Assembly (NCBI GenBank): GCA_021208645.1
Contig: JAJOJL010000060.1
Location: 1 to 64,000, forward strand
Source of the DNA: Bacillus sp. (in: firmicutes)
Lineage (GTDB): Bacteria > Bacillota > Bacilli > Bacillales > Salisediminibacteriaceae
DNA: 64,000 nucleotides
Reading direction: 5' to 3'
Shown here: positions 6,693 through 62,815 of the stretch, piece by piece
Layout: every line of letters starts with the position of its first letter
Numbering within the stretch: the first letter of the stretch is position 1
Notes under the pieces: generated by a model
What the model was told of the DNA's origin: nothing
Seen by the model: the letters and a program-made list of their open reading frames with translations, nothing else
The model's database searches: none
Position numbers and translations under genes: made by a program

Positions 6693-7293
6693 TAAAAATG
6701 GGGTGTGTTTGAAAAAACTGTGTGGTGTTAGTAACGGTACTTCTGGTCATTGTCAGTCGGTAATTAAAAGTGATCAGTTGCAGTCGTATATAATATAAAA
6801 TTAGTGAATTATTGAGCAAGTTGGGGTATGATAGGTTTATTGAATGGCATTTTCATTTTGACTCTTCATTGTACTAATTTTGCTGCGACTTCTGTTATAC
6901 CCTAACCTCATTGTCGACTCTCTTTTCTGTTTTGGGGGCGGAACCCCATATCATGACTATGTTTCAAAAAATTAATTATCTCATGTCCTTCTCTTTTTAT
7001 GTAAAGGCCCCTCGTTCTATAGAGACTTCACGAATTATCACTGAATCCACATTAATTTAAATTCCTAAAAGAAAACCTAAAATACGGAGGAAGGTAAGTT
7101 ATATTTACAAAATATTATGTATTGGTTTTTGACTTCCTAAGGGGGGATGTTCAGGCGCGCGCTAAGATGGATTAGTCTGTCAGTTTCTCATGTACTCCCC
7201 TTCGTTTCGGTGAGTAGATTTTATTGTGTTGGTATAGTTGGTTGTAAAGCTAATTATCGTGTCCATTTGTTTCAGTTTTCGTATAAAAATACG
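6693..7293. other. 600-bp non-coding spacer
   Basis: AT-rich sequence upstream of RAYT1 without a credible ORF on either strand and without a recognised RNA. It could hold the RAYT1 promoter, or be remnant sequence left by repeat-mediated rearrangement. Confidence 0.4.
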
Positions 7294-7320
7294 GAAGCAG
7301 GGGAACCGTCCCCATGCTTC
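7294..7320 (+). repeat. PAL-B 22 nt upstream of the RAYT1 start
   Basis: GAAGCAGGGGAACCGTCCCC + ATGCTTC, a near-perfect 27-bp hairpin ending 21 nt before the RAYT1 ATG. It sits in the 5' leader of the transposase, where it could modulate translation or be a site bound by the protein. Confidence 0.75.
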
Positions 7321-7341
7321 CACCTGAAAGGGATGGTGGCT

Positions 7342-8118
7342 ATGCCTAGGAGGGCGCGGGTGAAAAGTAGAAGCGGGATTTACCATATTATGTGGAGAGG
7401 TGCTAATGGGCAAGAGATTTTTCATGATGATCGGGATCGGATCAAGTTTCTGGATATTTTTCAAAAGTATAAACAGGAGAATGAATTGGAAGTATATGCT
7501 TGGTGTTTAATGAGTAACCATGTTCATTTGCTATTGCGAGAGGGAAATGAGTCTGTTTCTGAGACCATGAAACGGTTGGCGGTGTGCTATGTTTTTTACT
7601 ATAACTGGAAGTATAAAACAAGGGGACATTTGTTTCAGGATCGATTTCACAGTGAGGTTGTGGAAAAGAGGCAGTATTTTAAAACGGTGGTTAGGTATAT
7701 TCACCAAAATCCGGTGAAGGCAGGGATGGTTTCCCAGGTGGATGCTTGGATTTGGAGCAGTTGCCTTGGGTATTATGGTTATGATGTTTATCCTAGTGAA
7801 TTGTTGGACACTTCCTTTCTGTTTAGTATGTTTTCGGGGGATTTAACTATTGCGCAGGAGAGTTTTCGGGAGTTTAATGAGCAAGGGAATAGTGATCAAT
7901 GCCTGGAAATTGATTTTTATCCCATGAGGTTATCAGATGAAGAGGCCCGTTTAGAGATTAAAAAGGTGCTAGGTTCCGTAGAGATTGCTCAAGTAAAAAG
8001 TTTGCCTAAAGTTCCGAGAACGGAATTGTTGAAAATTGTGAAGGCCATTGAAGGCATATCCCAGCGACAAGCTGTAAGAATCTTAGGCGTATCACCGAAT
8101 TTGATATTTAAAGCGTGA
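7342..8118 (+). CDS. REP-associated tyrosine transposase RAYT1 (Y1/HUH, 258 aa)
   Basis: An HUH single-strand transposase of the IS200/IS605-like Y1 superfamily. From the ATG at 7342 the protein begins MPRRARVKSRSGIYHIMWRG. AAAGGGA lies 8 nt upstream, so the longer ORF-track start is rejected. The HUH motif is NHVHLLL (His60 and His62). The likely nucleophile is Tyr119 in RYIHQNPVKAG. The WCLMSNH and RGHLFQDRFHSE blocks are family hallmarks. The C-terminus adds a helix-turn-helix-like segment (SQRQAVRILGVSPN). No IS ends surround it, as expected for domesticated RAYTs. PAL-B lies just upstream and PAL-A begins 1 nt after its stop. Confidence 0.9.
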   Translation: MPRRARVKSRSGIYHIMWRGANGQEIFHDDRDRIKFLDIFQKYKQENELEVYAWCLMSNHVHLLLREGNESVSETMKRLAVCYVFYYNWKYKTRGHLFQDRFHSEVVEKRQYFKTVVRYIHQNPVKAGMVSQVDAWIWSSCLGYYGYDVYPSELLDTSFLFSMFSGDLTIAQESFREFNEQGNSDQCLEIDFYPMRLSDEEARLEIKKVLGSVEIAQVKSLPKVPRTELLKIVKAIEGISQRQAVRILGVSPNLIFKA

Positions 8119-16653: not shown

Positions 16654-16891
16654 ACCGGGTGGTGCCTGTCACCACCCGGTTTTTGTCGGAAAGGAAGCAA
16701 GGGAACCGTCCGGGACCTGTGAAATAGTATAAAAAGTAATTGCAATGACTACGCTCGTTGCGCGCTTGATATGAGAAACCCACTCATATCAGGCTTTTAA
16801 AAACATGCAACGGCTTCGTTCATTGCATATCGAGACATGTGAAAAAGGAAAAGCGCCCTTTTTCACATGTCTCGAACCGTCCCCTTGCTTC
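16654..16891 (+). mobile_element. PAL-A + MITE-like element (full copy 2)
   Basis: PAL-A 16654-16690 is the longest form: ACCGGGTGGTG/CACCACCCGGT with TTTTTGTCGGA, terminator-like, 14 nt after the protease stop. The 197-bp element 16695-16891 begins GAAGCAAGGGAACCGTCCGG and ends CGAACCGTCCCCTTGCTTC; the ends are ~34-nt imperfect inverted repeats. The interior has hairpins TGATATGAG.../CTCATATCA, ATGCAA.../TTGCAT and CGAGACATGTGAAAAAGG with its complement. Its final base overlaps the stop of the next minus-strand gene. Confidence 0.8.
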
Positions 16892-18312
16892 TATGATTTT
16901 CTTCGTTTCCCCCACAAAACTGTACCGGCAATTCCGCCAATGGTAACGAAGAGGAGGGTGGCTCCAACGAGATATGGTACATAGTAACCGTATCTATTGT
17001 TTAAGCTACCACCAAAGCGATCTAAGACTGTCACAGTTCTATCCCCATAAAGGGAAAAGGATAAATCCTTTTCAGGCAGCTTCGGAAAAAATCCATAATA
17101 CTCCTGGTTGCCCACTTCCTCTAATTCAAAATTACTTTCCACAATAAAAGGTGCTTCGTCTGGTGTCTTTATCGTAATATGTAAATCTTCAAAACTACTC
17201 CAGTTATTGGCCGGGTTTAAAATATATTCAATGGTATAAAGGGGCATTGCTGTTTGTGTCTGATCCATCGTCCCTGCCGCTTCATACTGAACACTCACTT
17301 CCTGCATTGTCTCCGGCGGAAACTCGACTGTATAAACGACCGAGAATATCCGTTCATAATATTGTTTTTCCAAAAGCTCGAAGTCTGAGCTAAAGCCTCC
17401 CATGTATTCAAAGGACTCATCAAGGGCTCTGGCAAAAATGTTGTACAGCTGATTAGGCGCCATGACATTACTGTATCGGCCTTCGCTGTTTTCTTCCATA
17501 AAAAGCTGGAGATACTCCTTCACCATAATTTCCTCTTTTGAGATGGTGTACCCATCGGATTCTGTTTGCTGGTCTGGTCCATCCTCAGAAAAAGCAAGCA
17601 CCGTATAGTCTATATCCTCCCCTAAAGCAAATAGGTGCAGCGTGCACTGGTCATCAAAGCACCAGGTGGACACGTCAATTTTTCCGTTATCATAGCCATA
17701 ACCGTTAAAGCCTTTGGAAAAAACCTTTGTTTTCTCCTCATCAATGGCAAAATCAATTGCTACTTTTATCTGTTCTCCAGGTTTAGATTCTATTTGAATT
17801 TCATGAAGGATGCCCATTTCCTCAGGGGAAAAATGCTTCGCTTCATACGGTAACGTTGTAATGGTACTGAGGATTGTTGCAAAATCATAGTTTACTTCTT
17901 GATCCATGCCGCCGTAGTTGTTAACAACACCGCCAAGGAATAATTCGAAGTCAATTTCCGAGCCATCGACCAATATAGAGATAGTGTCTGCTGAAAAGGC
18001 ATTAAGGTGACTGACAAACGGGAAAACCATTTGCACCGACTGAGTTGTGTCGGTCGGATTGTACATGGCATACGTGGCGGAAATGTTCCCGTTTATGGTG
18101 TGGGCAAAATTCTCGCTGTTGGAAAAATCAAATAGCAGATCTTCTCGGTGGACCTCAATAGGTGAATTCTCATCAATCACCAACACGTCTGAAGAAGGGT
18201 GATGATACCAATAGGTAGGACCAGAGTTTGCAAGACTAGTAAAAGGGATATTGAGAGAAGCGAACACAATAAATATTAATAGCAACAGAGGCATAGATTT
18301 GAATATTTTCAT
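16891..18312 (-). CDS. exported, membrane-anchored protein of unknown function (473 aa)
   Basis: N-terminal signal peptide (SMPLLLLIFIVFASLNIPFT) and one C-terminal membrane helix (VPYLVGATLLFVTIGGIAG) followed by WGKRRKS give an extracytoplasmic ~400-residue domain. That domain is acidic and aromatic-rich, with SVQMVFPFVSHLNAFSADTI, reminiscent of bacterial exported proteins that follow a vault-IT/DUF4424-like beta pattern, but I cannot place it. AAAAGGAG precedes the ATG. It is monocistronic; repeats lie on both sides. Lipid, wall or stress-related roles are all possible. Confidence 0.7.
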   Translation of the reverse strand: MKIFKSMPLLLLIFIVFASLNIPFTSLANSGPTYWYHHPSSDVLVIDENSPIEVHREDLLFDFSNSENFAHTINGNISATYAMYNPTDTTQSVQMVFPFVSHLNAFSADTISILVDGSEIDFELFLGGVVNNYGGMDQEVNYDFATILSTITTLPYEAKHFSPEEMGILHEIQIESKPGEQIKVAIDFAIDEEKTKVFSKGFNGYGYDNGKIDVSTWCFDDQCTLHLFALGEDIDYTVLAFSEDGPDQQTESDGYTISKEEIMVKEYLQLFMEENSEGRYSNVMAPNQLYNIFARALDESFEYMGGFSSDFELLEKQYYERIFSVVYTVEFPPETMQEVSVQYEAAGTMDQTQTAMPLYTIEYILNPANNWSSFEDLHITIKTPDEAPFIVESNFELEEVGNQEYYGFFPKLPEKDLSFSLYGDRTVTVLDRFGGSLNNRYGYYVPYLVGATLLFVTIGGIAGTVLWGKRRKS

Positions 18313-18335
18313 CCTAATTTCTCCTTTTGGTTGTA

Positions 18336-18370
18336 CGGGTGGTGCCTGTCACCACCCGGAAATTGTCGAA
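18336..18370 (+). repeat. full-arm PAL-A
   Basis: CGGGTGGTG/CACCACCCG stem with GAAATTGTCGAA foot, 23 nt upstream of the minus-strand exported-protein ATG. The native AAAAGGAG site lies between repeat and start. Confidence 0.8.
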
Positions 18371-20060: not shown

Positions 20061-21401
20061 ATGTTACAGCAAAAAGATTCGGGGTCAGGTTTGTCTAATC
20101 GTGAACAATGGGTATCGAGAAATGGTTTTATCCTTGCGGCTGTCGGTTCGGCAGTAGGATTAGGGAACATCTGGGGTTTTTCTTTCGCCCTTGGTACACA
20201 AGGGGGAGCGGCATTTTTACTTATTTATCTTATTTGTATTGTTTTTGTTGGTTACCCATTAATGATGGCAGAATTCACTATCGGACGTAAGGCGCAAAGT
20301 GACACGGTTGGATCATTCCAAAAGCTTGCACCAGGAAAACCATGGTTTTTTGCAGGTATATTTGGTGTAATAGCATCATTTCTAATCATGGCGTTTTATC
20401 CTGTTATCGGAGCTTGGGTTTTAAAGTATATTCAAGTTTATCTTTTCGGTGGTATTGGGGCTACTGCTTCCGGGGATTTCTTCGGGGCTTTTACAACTTC
20501 CAATGAAGTATTCATATGGCACTTGTTATTTATGGGATTCACTCTAGGAATTGTTATTTTAGGCGTGAAATCAGGTATCGAGAAAGCCAATAAGATTTTA
20601 CTTCCTGCCTTAGCTATTATGATTTTAGGCTTAGCAGTTTTTGCCTTAACGCAAAATGGGGCATCTGAAGGATTGGCATTTATGTTTTCACCAACATGGG
20701 CATCTTTTACTAATAGTGGTGTTTGGTTGGCGGCTATGGGGCAAGCATTTTTCTCCCTTAGCTTAGGGATGGGCGCATTGATTACGTATGCAAGTTATTT
20801 AAAGAAAGAAGACCAACTTCCAAAAGCAGCGGGAACTGTTGTTACGTTAGATACGTTAATCGCTGTTATGGCAGGGGTAATGATTTTTCCAGCCGTATTT
20901 GCATTTGGGTTAGACCCGGCAGGCGGTGGAGGACTTGTTTTCGTAACGATGCCGAATGTTTTTGAATCCATGACTGGCGGAATTATTTTCGGATTAGTCT
21001 TCTATGTACTTTTAGCATTTGCAGCCATTTCTTCAGCTGTGTCCCTGTTAGAGGTACCGGTAGCTTATTTCATGAATAAGTTTCAGATTACTCGTAAACT
21101 ATCTACGTTGATAGTTGGTGGAATCATGTTCGTTACAGGATTACCGATTGCTTTCAACCTTTTCGGTTGGTACAACGTAGATAATGTGTATGGCCTTGCT
21201 GCTTCTTTCTTCCTGCCACTTGGGGGACTTATTATTAGCTTGTTTGTTGGCTGGGGATGGAGCAAAAACGAAGTGCTTAAGGATTCAGACTTTGGTCAAA
21301 GCACGATTGGGCAAGTTTGGATTTTCCTGCTGAAATTCGTAATTCCAGTCCTTATCACCGTTCTATTCATTCAAAAAGCAATGGAGTATCTAGGGTTCTA
21401 G
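20061..21401 (+). CDS. sodium:neurotransmitter symporter (NSS/SNF) family protein (446 aa)
   Basis: A LeuT-fold Na+-coupled amino-acid transporter. TM1 carries the diagnostic GSAVGLGNIWGFSF with unwound substrate/Na+ site. TM6 region: FFSLSLGMGALITYASYL. About 11-12 helices are visible, and the N-terminus NREQWVSRNGFILAAV is typical. The preferred start is ATG 20061, 9 nt after AGGGAGG. The substrate could be a hydrophobic or aromatic amino acid. Downstream, PAL-A with T5 and PAL-B separate it from convergent truA. Confidence 0.88.
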   Translation: MLQQKDSGSGLSNREQWVSRNGFILAAVGSAVGLGNIWGFSFALGTQGGAAFLLIYLICIVFVGYPLMMAEFTIGRKAQSDTVGSFQKLAPGKPWFFAGIFGVIASFLIMAFYPVIGAWVLKYIQVYLFGGIGATASGDFFGAFTTSNEVFIWHLLFMGFTLGIVILGVKSGIEKANKILLPALAIMILGLAVFALTQNGASEGLAFMFSPTWASFTNSGVWLAAMGQAFFSLSLGMGALITYASYLKKEDQLPKAAGTVVTLDTLIAVMAGVMIFPAVFAFGLDPAGGGGLVFVTMPNVFESMTGGIIFGLVFYVLLAFAAISSAVSLLEVPVAYFMNKFQITRKLSTLIVGGIMFVTGLPIAFNLFGWYNVDNVYGLAASFFLPLGGLIISLFVGWGWSKNEVLKDSDFGQSTIGQVWIFLLKFVIPVLITVLFIQKAMEYLGF

Positions 21402-21408
21402 CGTGGAA

Positions 21409-21473
21409 CCGGGTGGTGCCTGTCACCACCCGGTTTTTGTCGAAATGGAAGCGGGGGAACAGTCCCCTGCTTC
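21409..21473 (+). repeat. full-arm PAL-A (T5) + PAL-B filling a convergent gap
   Basis: PAL-A 21409-21444 (10-bp stem, TTTTTGTCGAA), then PAL-B 21448-21473 (GAAGCGGGGGAAC/AGTCCCCTGCTTC). It starts 7 nt after the symporter stop and ends on the base adjacent to the truA stop codon, so the whole convergent gap is repeat. Confidence 0.85.
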
Positions 21474-22211
21474 CTAGAATTCAACCTTTTCTAAGTACAA
21501 CCCGTAAGGCTCAGCGATTCGGTCTCCTGTTTGATTTCGTTGTTTCGAAGCAAGGATGTCAGGAATTGAAGCTTGCGTTATGTCCCCTAAGCCAACACCA
21601 ATCAGCGTCCCTACCATTTTTCGCACCATATTATAAAGAAACCCGTTTCCGTTCACTCGTATTTCAATAAGCCCTTCGTTTTCTTCTATGTCTATGGAAT
21701 AGATTATTCGAACATTGGACTTCTTCTTCGATTTGGCATTAGTAAAAGCCGTAAAGTCATGCTCACCGATAAAATGAGAGCTTGCCTTACGCATTTCCGT
21801 AATATTTAAGGGTTTATTAACGTGCATGGTGTGTTTTCGTAAAAAGGGATTTAAGTAATCCTTATTCCATATCTTGTAAAGGTACGTTTTTGCCTTCGTA
21901 TTATACCTAGCATGAAACCGTTCTGGTGCTTCCGAAACGTGAGCAATGCTAATGTCCTGGGGCAAATAGTGGTTTAAATAAGATTTTATTTTTGCCTCGC
22001 TGAGCCGTGCTTTTGTATGGAAGTTCGCTACTTGCTCAAGGGCGTGTACCCCCGCATCGGTTCGGCTACTGCCAATGATCTCTATTTTTTCCCCAATCAT
22101 TTCAGATAACACATGTTCAATTTTTCCTTGAATCGTATTTTCCGTATTACCAAGGCGCTGCCACCCCTTATACCGACTACCATCATACTGAATGTTTAAC
22201 TTATAATTCAT
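21474..22211 (-). CDS. truA: tRNA pseudouridine synthase TruA (245 aa)
   Basis: Isomerises uridines 38-40 in the tRNA anticodon stem. The N-terminus NYKLNIQYDGSRYKGWQ, the catalytic Asp in SSRTDAGVHA and the C-terminal FLYNMVRKMVGTLIGVG are all canonical, and the length is right. True start ATG 22211. The track's GTG start lies within PAL-A. There is no native Shine-Dalgarno: the sequence upstream of the ATG is the reverse complement of PAL-A, and its GGTGGTGA, 8 nt before ATG, differs from GGAGGTGA at one base. It is not next to ribosomal-protein genes, so it is probably a second, stand-alone truA copy. Confidence 0.9.
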   Translation of the reverse strand: MNYKLNIQYDGSRYKGWQRLGNTENTIQGKIEHVLSEMIGEKIEIIGSSRTDAGVHALEQVANFHTKARLSEAKIKSYLNHYLPQDISIAHVSEAPERFHARYNTKAKTYLYKIWNKDYLNPFLRKHTMHVNKPLNITEMRKASSHFIGEHDFTAFTNAKSKKKSNVRIIYSIDIEENEGLIEIRVNGNGFLYNMVRKMVGTLIGVGLGDITQASIPDILASKQRNQTGDRIAEPYGLYLEKVEF

Positions 22212-22212
22212 C

Positions 22213-22241
22213 GTGCCTGTCACCACCCGGAATTTGTCGAA
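22213..22241 (+). repeat. PAL-A forming the truA leader
   Basis: GTGCCTGTCACCACCCGG + AATTTGTCGAA. Only one base separates it from the truA ATG on the other strand, so it replaces the usual ribosome-binding region. Confidence 0.85.
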
Positions 22242-22458
22242 TACTACTTGTATTGGTTATTGTTTCCTTTGTCTTTAGGTTTAATAACTACAACTGAAAG
22301 GAAACCTATGATCCAACTTAGGTTAATTTTATCATAAGCGGAGAGGGCTTGCTTTATGTTGAGGTGGTTGGTTGCTCGGAGTGTTTTTGGATAGAAGGAT
22401 GGAGCTTTTTCTGACGAGCATGTTCGGGTGTGCACATGGATGGTGACATCGGGGGCTT
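22242..22458. other. non-coding spacer between truA and the GDSL gene
   Basis: The minus-strand track ORF here (80 aa, proline/serine/histidine-rich) has no ribosome binding site and ends inside repeat sequence; I do not call it. No RNA structure recognised. Confidence 0.4.
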
Positions 22459-22495
22459 GACCACTGTCACCACCCGATGGCACCACCCGGTTTGT
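22459..22495 (+). repeat. degenerate PAL-A with duplicated right arm
   Basis: ACCACTGTCACCACCCGATG + GCACCACCCGGTTTG: two right-arm copies in tandem and no TCGA. It lies 6 nt from the GDSL gene stop. Confidence 0.55.
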
Positions 22496-22501
22496 TAGGT
22501 T

Positions 22502-23284
22502 TTACCTCTGCCTCCAACCTTTTGTTCTCGTCAAGGACTTCCAGAATTCCTTTGCGACGCCTTCATATCCTGCTTGGGTAAGGTGGATGTCGAAGTCAGT
22601 AAGGTAAGTATCTGCATTTTTTTCTACTAAACTTGCGGTTGCCACAAAATGAACGTTGTCCATTTCTGTTGCCATCTGCTCTAGTGAATTGTTAAATTGA
22701 GTAGCAACTCGATCAAAACGATTTTTAAAAGAGTCGGGCTGGTCATATAAAAGAACGGGGTTATAGTAACCCATGACATAAATTTGTACGTCATTATCGT
22801 TAACGGATTGGATTGTATTAAGGATTGTTCGAGTATTAGCTAATGCTGTATTAATGACTGGTTGAATCCAAGAATCGGGTAAGCCAAGGAAAAGCAAAGG
22901 TAGGGCATCGTTGGCACCAATGTTTAGTGTAAGGATGTCGGCTTGCTGAACTTCCGCAACTATTGTAGCATTATTTAACTGACTCAAAACACTCCATGTT
23001 GTATAGCCTGGTACTGCAAAATTAGTCAATTCTGTAGTGTAGTTGGATTGCTCAAGACGGGCTTGTAAGTACTCAGGGTAACCATCCAAAAGTTGAAAAC
23101 TTCCGCCAGGCACAGGTGTGTAACCGGCTGCTAGTGAATCTCCCAGCGCCACAAACTGTAACGTATCATGTTTAACATTTTTTGCTGCAACCGCTGAAGG
23201 AGCAACTAACGAAAACAATAACAAAAGGGATACCATTACCAACAATGCTTGTCTACTTCGTTTTTGCTTTACCAAATAAAACAC
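22502..23284 (-). CDS. secreted GDSL/SGNH esterase-lipase (260 aa)
   Basis: A SGNH hydrolase acting outside the cell on esters. Signal peptide VMVSLLLLFSLVAPSAVAA. Block I FVALGDSLAAGYTP (nucleophile Ser), block III LNIGANDAL (Asn), block V DFDIHLTQAGY (Asp...His), with Gly in block II (AVPGYTT). A basic N-terminus (KQKRSRQ) is typical of Sec export. The nearest known class is the YpmR-like/lysophospholipase-like SGNH family. Monocistronic, reading away from sqhC. Confidence 0.85.
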   Translation of the reverse strand: MFYLVKQKRSRQALLVMVSLLLLFSLVAPSAVAAKNVKHDTLQFVALGDSLAAGYTPVPGGSFQLLDGYPEYLQARLEQSNYTTELTNFAVPGYTTWSVLSQLNNATIVAEVQQADILTLNIGANDALPLLFLGLPDSWIQPVINTALANTRTILNTIQSVNDNDVQIYVMGYYNPVLLYDQPDSFKNRFDRVATQFNNSLEQMATEMDNVHFVATASLVEKNADTYLTDFDIHLTQAGYEGVAKEFWKSLTRTKGWRQR

Positions 23285-43946: not shown

Positions 43947-44534
43947 ATGGGAAGAAATGTAAGACTATGGATTCCAACCAGTTATTATCATATTACCTGC
44001 AGGGGGAACCGGCGTGATGCTCTGTTTCTAGATAGAAAGGATTATATAACATTTTTTTATATCCTACGAAAACTTCACGAAAAATACCCCATCGAACTTG
44101 CCGCTTATTGCTTAATGACAAATCACTATCATTTACTTCTTCGATCCAATCAAAATGCCATGTCAAAAATTATGGGCTTGTTAAATAAGCGATATGCCAC
44201 TTACTTTAATATTAAATATCGTTTAACAGGCCATCTTTTTGAGAAACGCTTTTATGATAAGCATATTGGGACAGAATATGGAATGTTAGAGGTTAGTAAG
44301 TATATTCATATGAACCCTTTGGAAGCGAGTATTGTTTCCCAACTGGAGGACTATCGTTGGAGCAGTTTTTGTTCCTATATGGGGCTAGGTGCCATGTCAG
44401 ACCAACACCAGCTAGAAGTTCAACCCTATTTTAACTACCGGTTGCTAGATTACTTTCAAGGTACATTAGAAGAAAAACGAATGCAACTCCGGGAGTGGTG
44501 CCTGTCACCACCCGAAAATTGTCGGAAGGTCTAG
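43947..44534 (+). CDS. REP-associated tyrosine transposase RAYT2 (Y1/HUH, 195 aa)
   Basis: Second Y1 single-strand transposase. AAGGAGAG precedes ATG 43947. MGRNVRLWIPTSYYHITCRG opens the family pattern; HUH is NHYHLLL (His60, His62), and Tyr119 in KYIHMNPLEA is the probable nucleophile, the same numbering as RAYT1. It lacks the C-terminal HTH extension of RAYT1 and is clearly a different subgroup. The last ~15 codons (EWCLSPPENCRKV) are read through a PAL-A copy, and the stop lies just beyond it. Whether that tail is ancestral or the gene was truncated by the element is open. Confidence 0.88.
   Translation: MGRNVRLWIPTSYYHITCRGNRRDALFLDRKDYITFFYILRKLHEKYPIELAAYCLMTNHYHLLLRSNQNAMSKIMGLLNKRYATYFNIKYRLTGHLFEKRFYDKHIGTEYGMLEVSKYIHMNPLEASIVSQLEDYRWSSFCSYMGLGAMSDQHQLEVQPYFNYRLLDYFQGTLEEKRMQLREWCLSPPENCRKV
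44489..44526 (+). repeat. PAL-A inside the 3' end of RAYT2
   Basis: CCGGGAGTGGTGCCTGTCAC + CACCCGAAAATTGTCGGA. The repeat is translated as part of the transposase C-terminus. Confidence 0.85.
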
Positions 44535-47044: not shown

Positions 47045-47269
47045 TCATCCTCCTGACAATGGGAGGAGAAGGTGAACCGAATCCCCGTCCTTAAGCTCCA
47101 ACTCCCGATCCGTAACAATATTTTCGTTGACAACGACGAGGGCATCGTCGTCCCAACGGATGCCCAGTGTTAGGACGAACTCCTCGATCGTTACAGGCGT
47201 CGATAACTTATATTCCCTTTGCACATTCTCTAAATATGGAATAAAGGACACAACACTTATGGTAATCAT
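47045..47269 (-). CDS. MoaD/ThiS-family sulfur-carrier protein (74 aa)
   Basis: Beta-grasp ubiquitin-like fold ending in the diagnostic Gly-Gly (LLPLSGG), which would be adenylated and thiocarboxylated. IRWDDDALVVVNENIVTDRE is typical. It is directly downstream of an aldehyde:ferredoxin oxidoreductase gene, so a role in tungsto/molybdopterin assembly for that enzyme is likely. Only a PAL-A copy lies between the two genes. The normal Shine-Dalgarno is absent; GGTGGTGA from the reverse strand of PAL-A, 9 nt before the ATG, is the only candidate. Confidence 0.85.
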   Translation of the reverse strand: MITISVVSFIPYLENVQREYKLSTPVTIEEFVLTLGIRWDDDALVVVNENIVTDRELELKDGDSVHLLLPLSGG

Positions 47270-47270
47270 T

Positions 47271-47299
47271 GGTGCCTGTCACCACCCGGAATTTGTCGA
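47271..47299 (+). repeat. PAL-A as the whole intergenic region and RBS
   Basis: GGTGCCTGTCACCACCCGG + AATTTGTCGA, bounded on one side by the AOR stop and on the other by one base before the MoaD-like ATG. Nothing else lies between the two genes. Confidence 0.9.
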
Positions 47300-49007
47300 T
47301 TACAGGTCATCCCGTTCAATCCCAACAGCGGCCAACTCGTCTGCTTCCACATCAAACACCGTACCGCTGCCTTCATTCACTTCATCATAAAAGTAATCAG
47401 CCAGTTTGTCATCTGCTTTCGTAAAGCCAGCCTGGCGGTTAAAGGTATGTTCCACCTTTAAGGTTTCATTCGCTGCACGTACAATATCTTCTCCTGTGTA
47501 TTCATCACCGATATAGGCCGATACCATGTCTGCAAGGAGGTCCCAACGTTCCTTGACTGCTCCAGAGCTAAACATACACATCCCTAAATAATCCCAAATC
47601 GTATTCACCGTCTGTGCATGTCGGGATACTTCCACTTGCCCTTCCTTAGAATGGTGATCCACCTGAGCTCGCACTGTCTGTCCTGCCGTATGGTCGGCAC
47701 CCATTGGGGAAGTGGCAAAGGTGACACCGAGCCCTTTGACCGCCCTTGGATCATAGGCCGGCATTGTTTGCCCTTTTGCCGTTGGCGTATGGACTTCACC
47801 GTAAATCTTACCAATTACTTCAGCGCCACTACCGATGATGCGGCCGAGAGGTGTGCCCGCCTTTACTTCCTTCAGCGTTTCAATCGCTTTTTTTTCCATC
47901 ACCAAACGGTATAATGTTTTGCGCCATCAAAACGCCAAGGGCGCCGCCCGTTTCAATTGTATCGATCCCGTATTCATTACACAGATCGTTCAGTTTCACC
48001 ACGTCATCGAGATCGCTAATGTCTAAGTTGGAACCTAGTAAACCAATATTCTCGTATTCTATCGGGCCCGTGATGCGGTTTCCGTCCTCGTCGGCAAAAA
48101 CATTGGAGCAGCGGATAATACAGCCTGGCATGCAGGCATGGGTGGTTGTTCCTTCACCACCTCGCTCCTTTATCGTGTCCCGGAGAGCTTCCCCGGAAAT
48201 GGATTCATACCCTTCCATTTTTCCCGTTGAAAAATTTCGCGTCGGCAGTGCCCCGAGGGCGTTCGTTGTTTTCACAAGTCCAGCAGTTCCTAGCTCTGGC
48301 AACACCTTGGCCGTGGCCGGCGTTTCCATCAGCCAGTTGTGATATTGTTTCAACGCTTTTTTAAATCTGTCTTTCTCTTTCGGGCGATTTTTTTCCACAC
48401 CGCTTGCGTCAAGAACGATGGCTTTCACACCTTTGGACCCAGCAACAGCCCCGAGGCCGCCGCGGCCATTAAATCGGGTTGGATAGCCGTCTTTGTCCTG
48501 TCCTGCCACGGCAGCCAAGTTCATCTTCTGCTCCCCTGCCACACCGATGAGCCAAAGGACCACGTGTTTTCCGTACTGGTCACGGAGCCATTGGGCCGCC
48601 TCACTCAAGTCCTTGCCCATGATTGGCGAGGCGTCAGCAAAGGTAACTCCGTCCTTAGATAGGTGAATGATTTGAAAATCTTCTCTTGTGTTTTCGAAAA
48701 CAAGGGCTCGAATCCCTAATTTGCCAAGGGTGAGGCCGGAAATGCCACCAGCGTTACTTTCCTTGATTCCACCAGTTAAGGGGCTTTTTGCACCGACAGA
48801 GTACCGGTCAGCACTGGAGGCACCAGAACCAGTTAATAATCCCGGAGCAAAAATCAGTTTGTTTTTTGGTCCTAATGGATGGCAGGTGGCAGGTACTTCA
48901 TCAAGAAGAATTCTCGACGTTAACGCCCTGCCTCCTAGCCTGTTGTACTTCGATACCTCCTCGTCTTTTGTCGTTAAACTTTCCATATCAACCCTTACAA
49001 TCTTCAT
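47300..49007 (-). pseudogene. aldehyde:ferredoxin oxidoreductase (AOR family), one frameshift
   Basis: Tungsto/molybdopterin enzyme oxidising aldehydes to acids with ferredoxin. Two track ORFs join when one A is removed from the A8 run at 47888-47895 (FGDGKKAIETLKEVKA...). The product is ~568 aa. N-terminal domain LGGRALTSRILLDEVPATCH, FAPGLLTGSGASSADRYSVG, SNAGGISG; Fe-S Cys cluster CMPGCIIRC, then a fourth Cys in LGMCMF; QDKDGYPTRFNGRGGLGAV loops bind the dinucleotide cofactor. GGAGGAGGG precedes ATG 49007. Members of this type occur in many Gram-positive anaerobes and some Bacillaceae. Confidence 0.88.
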
Positions 49008-49021
49008 ACGTATCCCTCCTC

Positions 49022-49054
49022 CGTGGTGCCTGTCACCACCCGGTTTTTGTCGAA
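49022..49054 (+). repeat. PAL-A (T5) in a divergent promoter region
   Basis: CGTGGTGCCTGTCACCACCC + GGTTTTTGTCGAA, 15 nt upstream of the AOR start on the opposite strand. Here it cannot be a terminator for a plus-strand gene. Confidence 0.85.
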
Positions 49055-62726: not shown

Positions 62727-62742
62727 CCATTACCCTCCTTTG

Positions 62743-62815
62743 CGTGGTGCCTGTCACCACCCGGTTTATGTCGAATCTCTGTAGTAGTATTCGGGTGGTG
62801 ACAGGCACCGCCCGG
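62743..62815. repeat. REPIN-like inverted PAL-A pair
   Basis: Plus copy 62743-62775 (CGTGGTGCCTGTCACCACCC + GGTTTATGTCGAA), 16-nt spacer, hairpin in minus orientation 62792-62815 (CGGGTGGTGACAGGCACC + GCCCGG). It lies in the promoter region of the sigma operon. Confidence 0.8.

Follow-up and report, generated by a model that had tools for sequence, protein, structure and literature searches.

The window, i.e., the whole stretch of 64,000 nucleotides analysed here, carries a truA gene on the minus strand at 21474-22211, with its ATG at 22209-22211. The 245-aa product was identified from its translation, from its match to TIGR00071 (hisT_truA; 201 bits, cut-off 143) and from 40 related loci, and the reading frame is intact over its 245 codons. 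Judged by its sequence, 21474-22211 is a true truA, encoding a tRNA pseudouridine(38-40) synthase of the second type. Where relatives possess this second type, it comes in addition to a more distant truA. A promoter and terminator scan of 21390-22520 returned nothing.

Directly upstream, a half copy of a repeat, PAL-A, occupies 22213-22241 on the minus strand and reads TTCGACAAATTCCGGGTGGTGACAGGCAC in the truA sense. The single base 22212 separates it from the ATG, and the minus strand across the truA start reads TTCGACAAATTCCGGGTGGTGACAGGCAC-G-ATGAATTATAAG. The repeat includes a Shine-Dalgarno-like part, GGTGGTGA (22220-22227, minus strand), which lies 8 nt before the ATG and agrees with GGAGGTGA at seven of eight bases, i.e., with one mismatch. 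An earlier note on this DNA had described the single separating base, the mismatch and the distance in just these terms.

The truA start and its leader

The stretch in which a Shine-Dalgarno (SD) sequence is expected consists entirely of PAL-A. No native SD is found near the truA ATG, and the first SD-like stretch beyond the repeat, AAAGGA, lies upstream of that codon by more than 50 nt. The sequence AAAGGAAACAATAACC, upstream of PAL-A, was considered as a displaced native leader given its likeness by eye to the orthologs, but it was rejected because it is too distant and no start codon is reachable.

Related leaders were collected by scanning one genome per species, which yielded 40 related truA loci, with 36 leaders inspected and 34 scored for pairing. 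In the 36 inspected leaders, the ATG is preceded at a distance of a few bases by an SD-like stretch, AAGGAG or AGGAGG in most cases. The position of this stretch is exactly the place now occupied by PAL-A in the window, which bears out the claim of the earlier note that no native SD is left at truA. When paired with a Bacillus anti-SD, assumed for the host, the PAL-A site yields a duplex of -11.6 kcal/mol, a value reached by 1.1% of random 17-mers from the window, while the native SDs of the 34 scored orthologs have a median of -8.75 kcal/mol (range -6.0 to -11.5). The spacing from GGTGG to the ATG is 11 nt, against 3-9 nt in truA orthologs and 1-13 nt in genes of the window. The earlier note had also proposed a comparison with the truA leaders of close relatives that lack the repeat. 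The orthologs showed the native SD at the same place, but the closest of the 40 loci is 73% identical, so that no close repeat-free relative is among them and the empty site was not seen.

Two GTG codons, at 22226 and 22223, lie within PAL-A in frame with truA, and translation could in principle start at either of them, or proceed without an SD on a leaderless transcript whose 5' end lies close to the ATG. We consider such a start very improbable, since neither GTG has an SD of its own upstream, with the stretch 5' of the repeat scoring -0.9 kcal/mol, and since orthologs begin at the position of the window ATG or one codon before it. After the ATG, the orthologs have one codon more (M-x-NYK) than the window truA (M-NYK).

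According to the earlier note, a PAL-A hairpin might also mask the ribosome-binding site; on this reading the hairpin would regulate truA. A 10-bp stem is possible in full copies at other places, but the truA copy is missing the second, complementary arm. Pairing there is restricted to GUG/CAC, and the leader is less folded than its shuffled versions (z +1.74). Hence, a masking hairpin is not expected at truA and is given almost no credence here; the weak folding suggests instead that the SD-like site is open.

A REP-like repeat family and Y1 transposases

The PAL-A consensus is TTCGACAAAttCCGGGTGGTGACAGGCACC, and the truA copy is close to it. Allowing at most one mismatch, GGTGNCAGGCAC has 32 matches in the window against 0.4 expected. 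About 30 PAL-A copies are present in the window, and 96 of the 104 copies surveyed lie outside called genes, these being simple open-frame calls and not those of a trained gene finder. Of 397 genomes of the order, 17 contain an exact 29-nt pattern of PAL-A, mostly in clusters that are often confined locally to one strand. Concentration is also seen in the 3.95-Mb bin, where 24 of the 38 exact copies of GGTGGTGACAGGCAC fall in the 64-kb window, almost all in the same orientation. That the window is a foreign contig was considered and rejected: other genomes likewise show local one-strand clusters, and truA and the moaD gene described below have relatives within the genus. For these reasons, local dispersal is preferred.

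About ten full copies in the window have a hairpin with a 7-20 bp stem and a 2-5 nt loop, which the other half copies, including the one at truA, do not have. Full copies are flanked by TTCGACAAAtt on one side and by variable sequence on the other. Next to the TTCGAC end of PAL-A there is often another repeat, GGAAGC..GGGAACCGTCCCC..GCTTCC (e.g., at 21440-21474). Full palindromes followed by TTTTT, such as 21409-21439, resemble intrinsic terminators of the upstream plus-strand gene; a simple scan did not list 21409-21439.

All eight repeat-bearing genomes that were searched contain Y1 transposase genes. PAL-A lies within 1.5 kb of 7 of 20 Y1 loci, and 18 of the 19 copies concerned run in the direction of the gene. 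The window itself has a REP-associated Y1 (HUH) transposase gene on the plus strand at 7147-8118 (PF01797, 59.1 bits; NF047646, 78.9 bits against a cut-off of 80), with PAL-A copies just downstream, and a second one, also on the plus strand, at 43947-44534 (PF01797, 57.4 bits; NF047646, 80.4 bits against the same cut-off of 80), with PAL-A copies on both sides. Given this clustering at Y1 genes whose scores against the REP-associated tyrosine transposase model are close to the cut-off, a REP/RAYT-like system is indicated, and PAL-A is a REP-like repeat, probably dispersed locally by a RAYT-type (Y1/HUH) transposase. The GT[AG]G tetranucleotide that marks canonical REPs at the 5' hairpin foot (PMC6006769) was not found at that position in PAL-A, which is why the repeat is called only "REP-like". 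One PAL-A copy, at 44498-44515, is inside the 3' end of the second transposase frame and encodes part of its C-terminus. No known RNA family was found in the window, and a literature search with the letters of the repeat returned only unrelated human papers.

Copies next to genes and the probable replacement of native leaders

For 94 intergenic copies, genes were called to either side, and in 74 of them it is the GGCAC end that has the shorter distance to a gene (p = 2e-8). In 33 of the 94, no more than 10 nt separate this end from a gene, against 7 expected under random placement in the same gaps, whereas the opposite end shows no excess (6, with 7 expected). Most gene-adjoining copies come after stop codons and some come before starts. 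In 28 surveyed copies the GGCAC end is within 12 nt of a stop codon, sometimes immediately after it; such copies possibly affect termination or mRNA ends.

Copies before starts form two classes, located either 18-44 nt or 1-5 nt from the start. All seven copies of the former class, including one 44 nt away (L213) whose gene start is uncertain, have an SD-like stretch between repeat and gene, which is clear and well spaced in five. The minus-strand copies that contrast with truA in the window have likewise kept native sequence before the gene: GGAGGAGGG between the repeat at 49008-49043 and the ATG of an aldehyde ferredoxin oxidoreductase gene, AAAGGAGGG with the copy before a sigma-70-family gene (62727-62764), and AAAAGGAG with the copy at 18313-18359 before the gene at 16891-18312. 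The 1-5 nt class has no SD between repeat and start. An ORF 5 nt from PAL-A (L198) was left out of this class because its true start is doubtful.

A second case in the window precedes a moaD/ThiS-family gene on the minus strand at 47045-47269 (74 aa; PF02597, 28.3 bits, cut-off 22.5; 67% identical to a congener homolog). Here PAL-A (47270-47299, minus strand) makes up the entire 30-nt spacer from the upstream stop codon to the moaD ATG, with GGTGGTGA at 47279-47286. At this place the congener G008 instead has a native spacer, which differs from PAL-A and contains AGGGG. Given that moaD fell below the length filter of the survey, it was added to the 1-5 nt class separately. Upstream of moaD, the gene for aldehyde ferredoxin oxidoreductase (47300-49007, minus strand) falls into two frames that overlap, 47880-49007 and 47300-47899, and is thus either frameshifted or affected by an assembly error. 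In other genomes, the 1-5 nt class comprises genes for IcmF (fused isobutyryl-CoA mutase), an alcohol dehydrogenase, an ABC-F protein, methylmalonate-semialdehyde dehydrogenase and argininosuccinate lyase.

The alcohol dehydrogenase leader could be followed within one genus. Five species are without PAL-A and have an ordinary leader. In one species, G396, PAL-A in its GGTGG form is followed by TTCTACTGAATGGAGGAAATAAATTA and then the ATG; with TTCTACTGAATGGAGGAAATAAATTA in between, the native SD is intact, its GGAGG being present. In seven species, the 26-nt stretch with the native SD is absent, PAL-A stands directly before the start, and a change of T to A has turned GGTGG into GGAGG, giving a perfect GGAGGTGA. 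Across these seven species a 17-base core shows no variation, compared with 17 variable positions among the 60 bases upstream (P = 0.008). As read from these leaders, the alcohol dehydrogenase shows a path in which the repeat would first have stood beside the native SD, the native SD would then have been deleted, and the repeat would have been tuned by one base. The same end state is seen at the methylmalonate-semialdehyde dehydrogenase gene of G370, where, in comparison with an 88% identical relative, replacement has taken in the native SD, the start and the first codons, and the frame now begins at a new ATG.

The GGA variant is present in two of six start-abutting copies and in none of the 98 other surveyed copies (p = 0.003). 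GGA copies distant from starts do occur in other genomes; hence this test supports selection without proving it, and the variant taken alone was rejected as proof. At truA the copy keeps T, not A, in GGTGG, with no sign of tuning.

The stages at the alcohol dehydrogenase, the recurrence at other genes, and the native SD that orthologs carry at the position of PAL-A together suggest that PAL-A is quite probably the working SD of truA. In the sense ending in GGTGGTGACAGGCAC, the repeat carries a near-match to the Bacillus SD. A copy would have arrived upstream of truA, presumably moved by the transposase, after which the native SD between copy and gene would have been lost, perhaps through deletion, and GGTGGTGA of the repeat would now serve ribosomes as the binding site for the ATG. 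The earlier note had put forward such a takeover, and this part of its proposal appears well supported by the orthologs, the recurrence and the G396 intermediate, while its hairpin part is not supported for this copy.

Alternatively, PAL-A may have destroyed the native SD and left the second truA poorly translated or silent, in which case the likeness of GGTGGTGA to an SD would be incidental and decay would not be visible yet. The long SD spacing is in line with this reading, as are the fact that in relatives the second-type truA is additional to the distant truA and the closeness of the PAL-A copy to the consensus, by which it may be young. Still, we regard this outcome as unlikely: the frame remains intact, the pairing energy is better than that of the native SDs of orthologs, and at the alcohol dehydrogenase the same arrangement has been kept over seven species with an invariant core. 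The reading of PAL-A as the SD of truA is retained as the best explanation.

Relation to known repeats

REP/RAYT elements are already known, and it is established that genes can acquire promoters and terminators from mobile elements. The substitution of a native SD by one carried in a repeat would be another route for selfish DNA to rewire expression. Given that the states before, during and after are found in living species of the alcohol dehydrogenase lineage, both the exchange of one ribosome-binding site for another and the improvement through a single base change are directly testable. A broader reading, which we hold to be quite unlikely, is that PAL-A is a portable translation-initiation module, seeded by the transposase at gene starts in many Bacillales as a common leader for unrelated genes, in which case transcripts with the opposite arm, CACCACCCGG, could repress all of them in trans through pairing with GGTGGTG.

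REPs and REPtrons are short palindromic intergenic repeats with RAYT / TnpA-REP transposases (PMC3733652, PMC6006769, PMC8266576). PAL-A resembles them in being short, palindromic, intergenic, multi-copy and grouped at a Y1 transposase gene, with some long hairpins. It differs from them in lacking the GT[AG]G tag, in its many half palindromes, in its occurrence in Bacillales, and in having some copies as putative SDs. No earlier report of a RAYT-associated repeat acting as an SD was found in the literature searched, which omits most subscription journals.

Work cited in PMC12306157 describes ribosome stalling at E. coli REPs located up to 15 nt from stop codons. PAL-A is similar in being concentrated within about 10 nt of stop codons and in touching translation. 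However, the E. coli effect described there is exerted at termination and lowers expression, whereas PAL-A at starts is placed where it would start translation. The TAACTGA repeats of Beggiatoaceae precede start codons and have little SD character (PMC4679880). Like PAL-A, they are intergenic repeats that end about 1 nt before starts where canonical SDs are mostly missing; unlike them, PAL-A carries GGTGGTGA, which became GGAGGTGA in two lineages.
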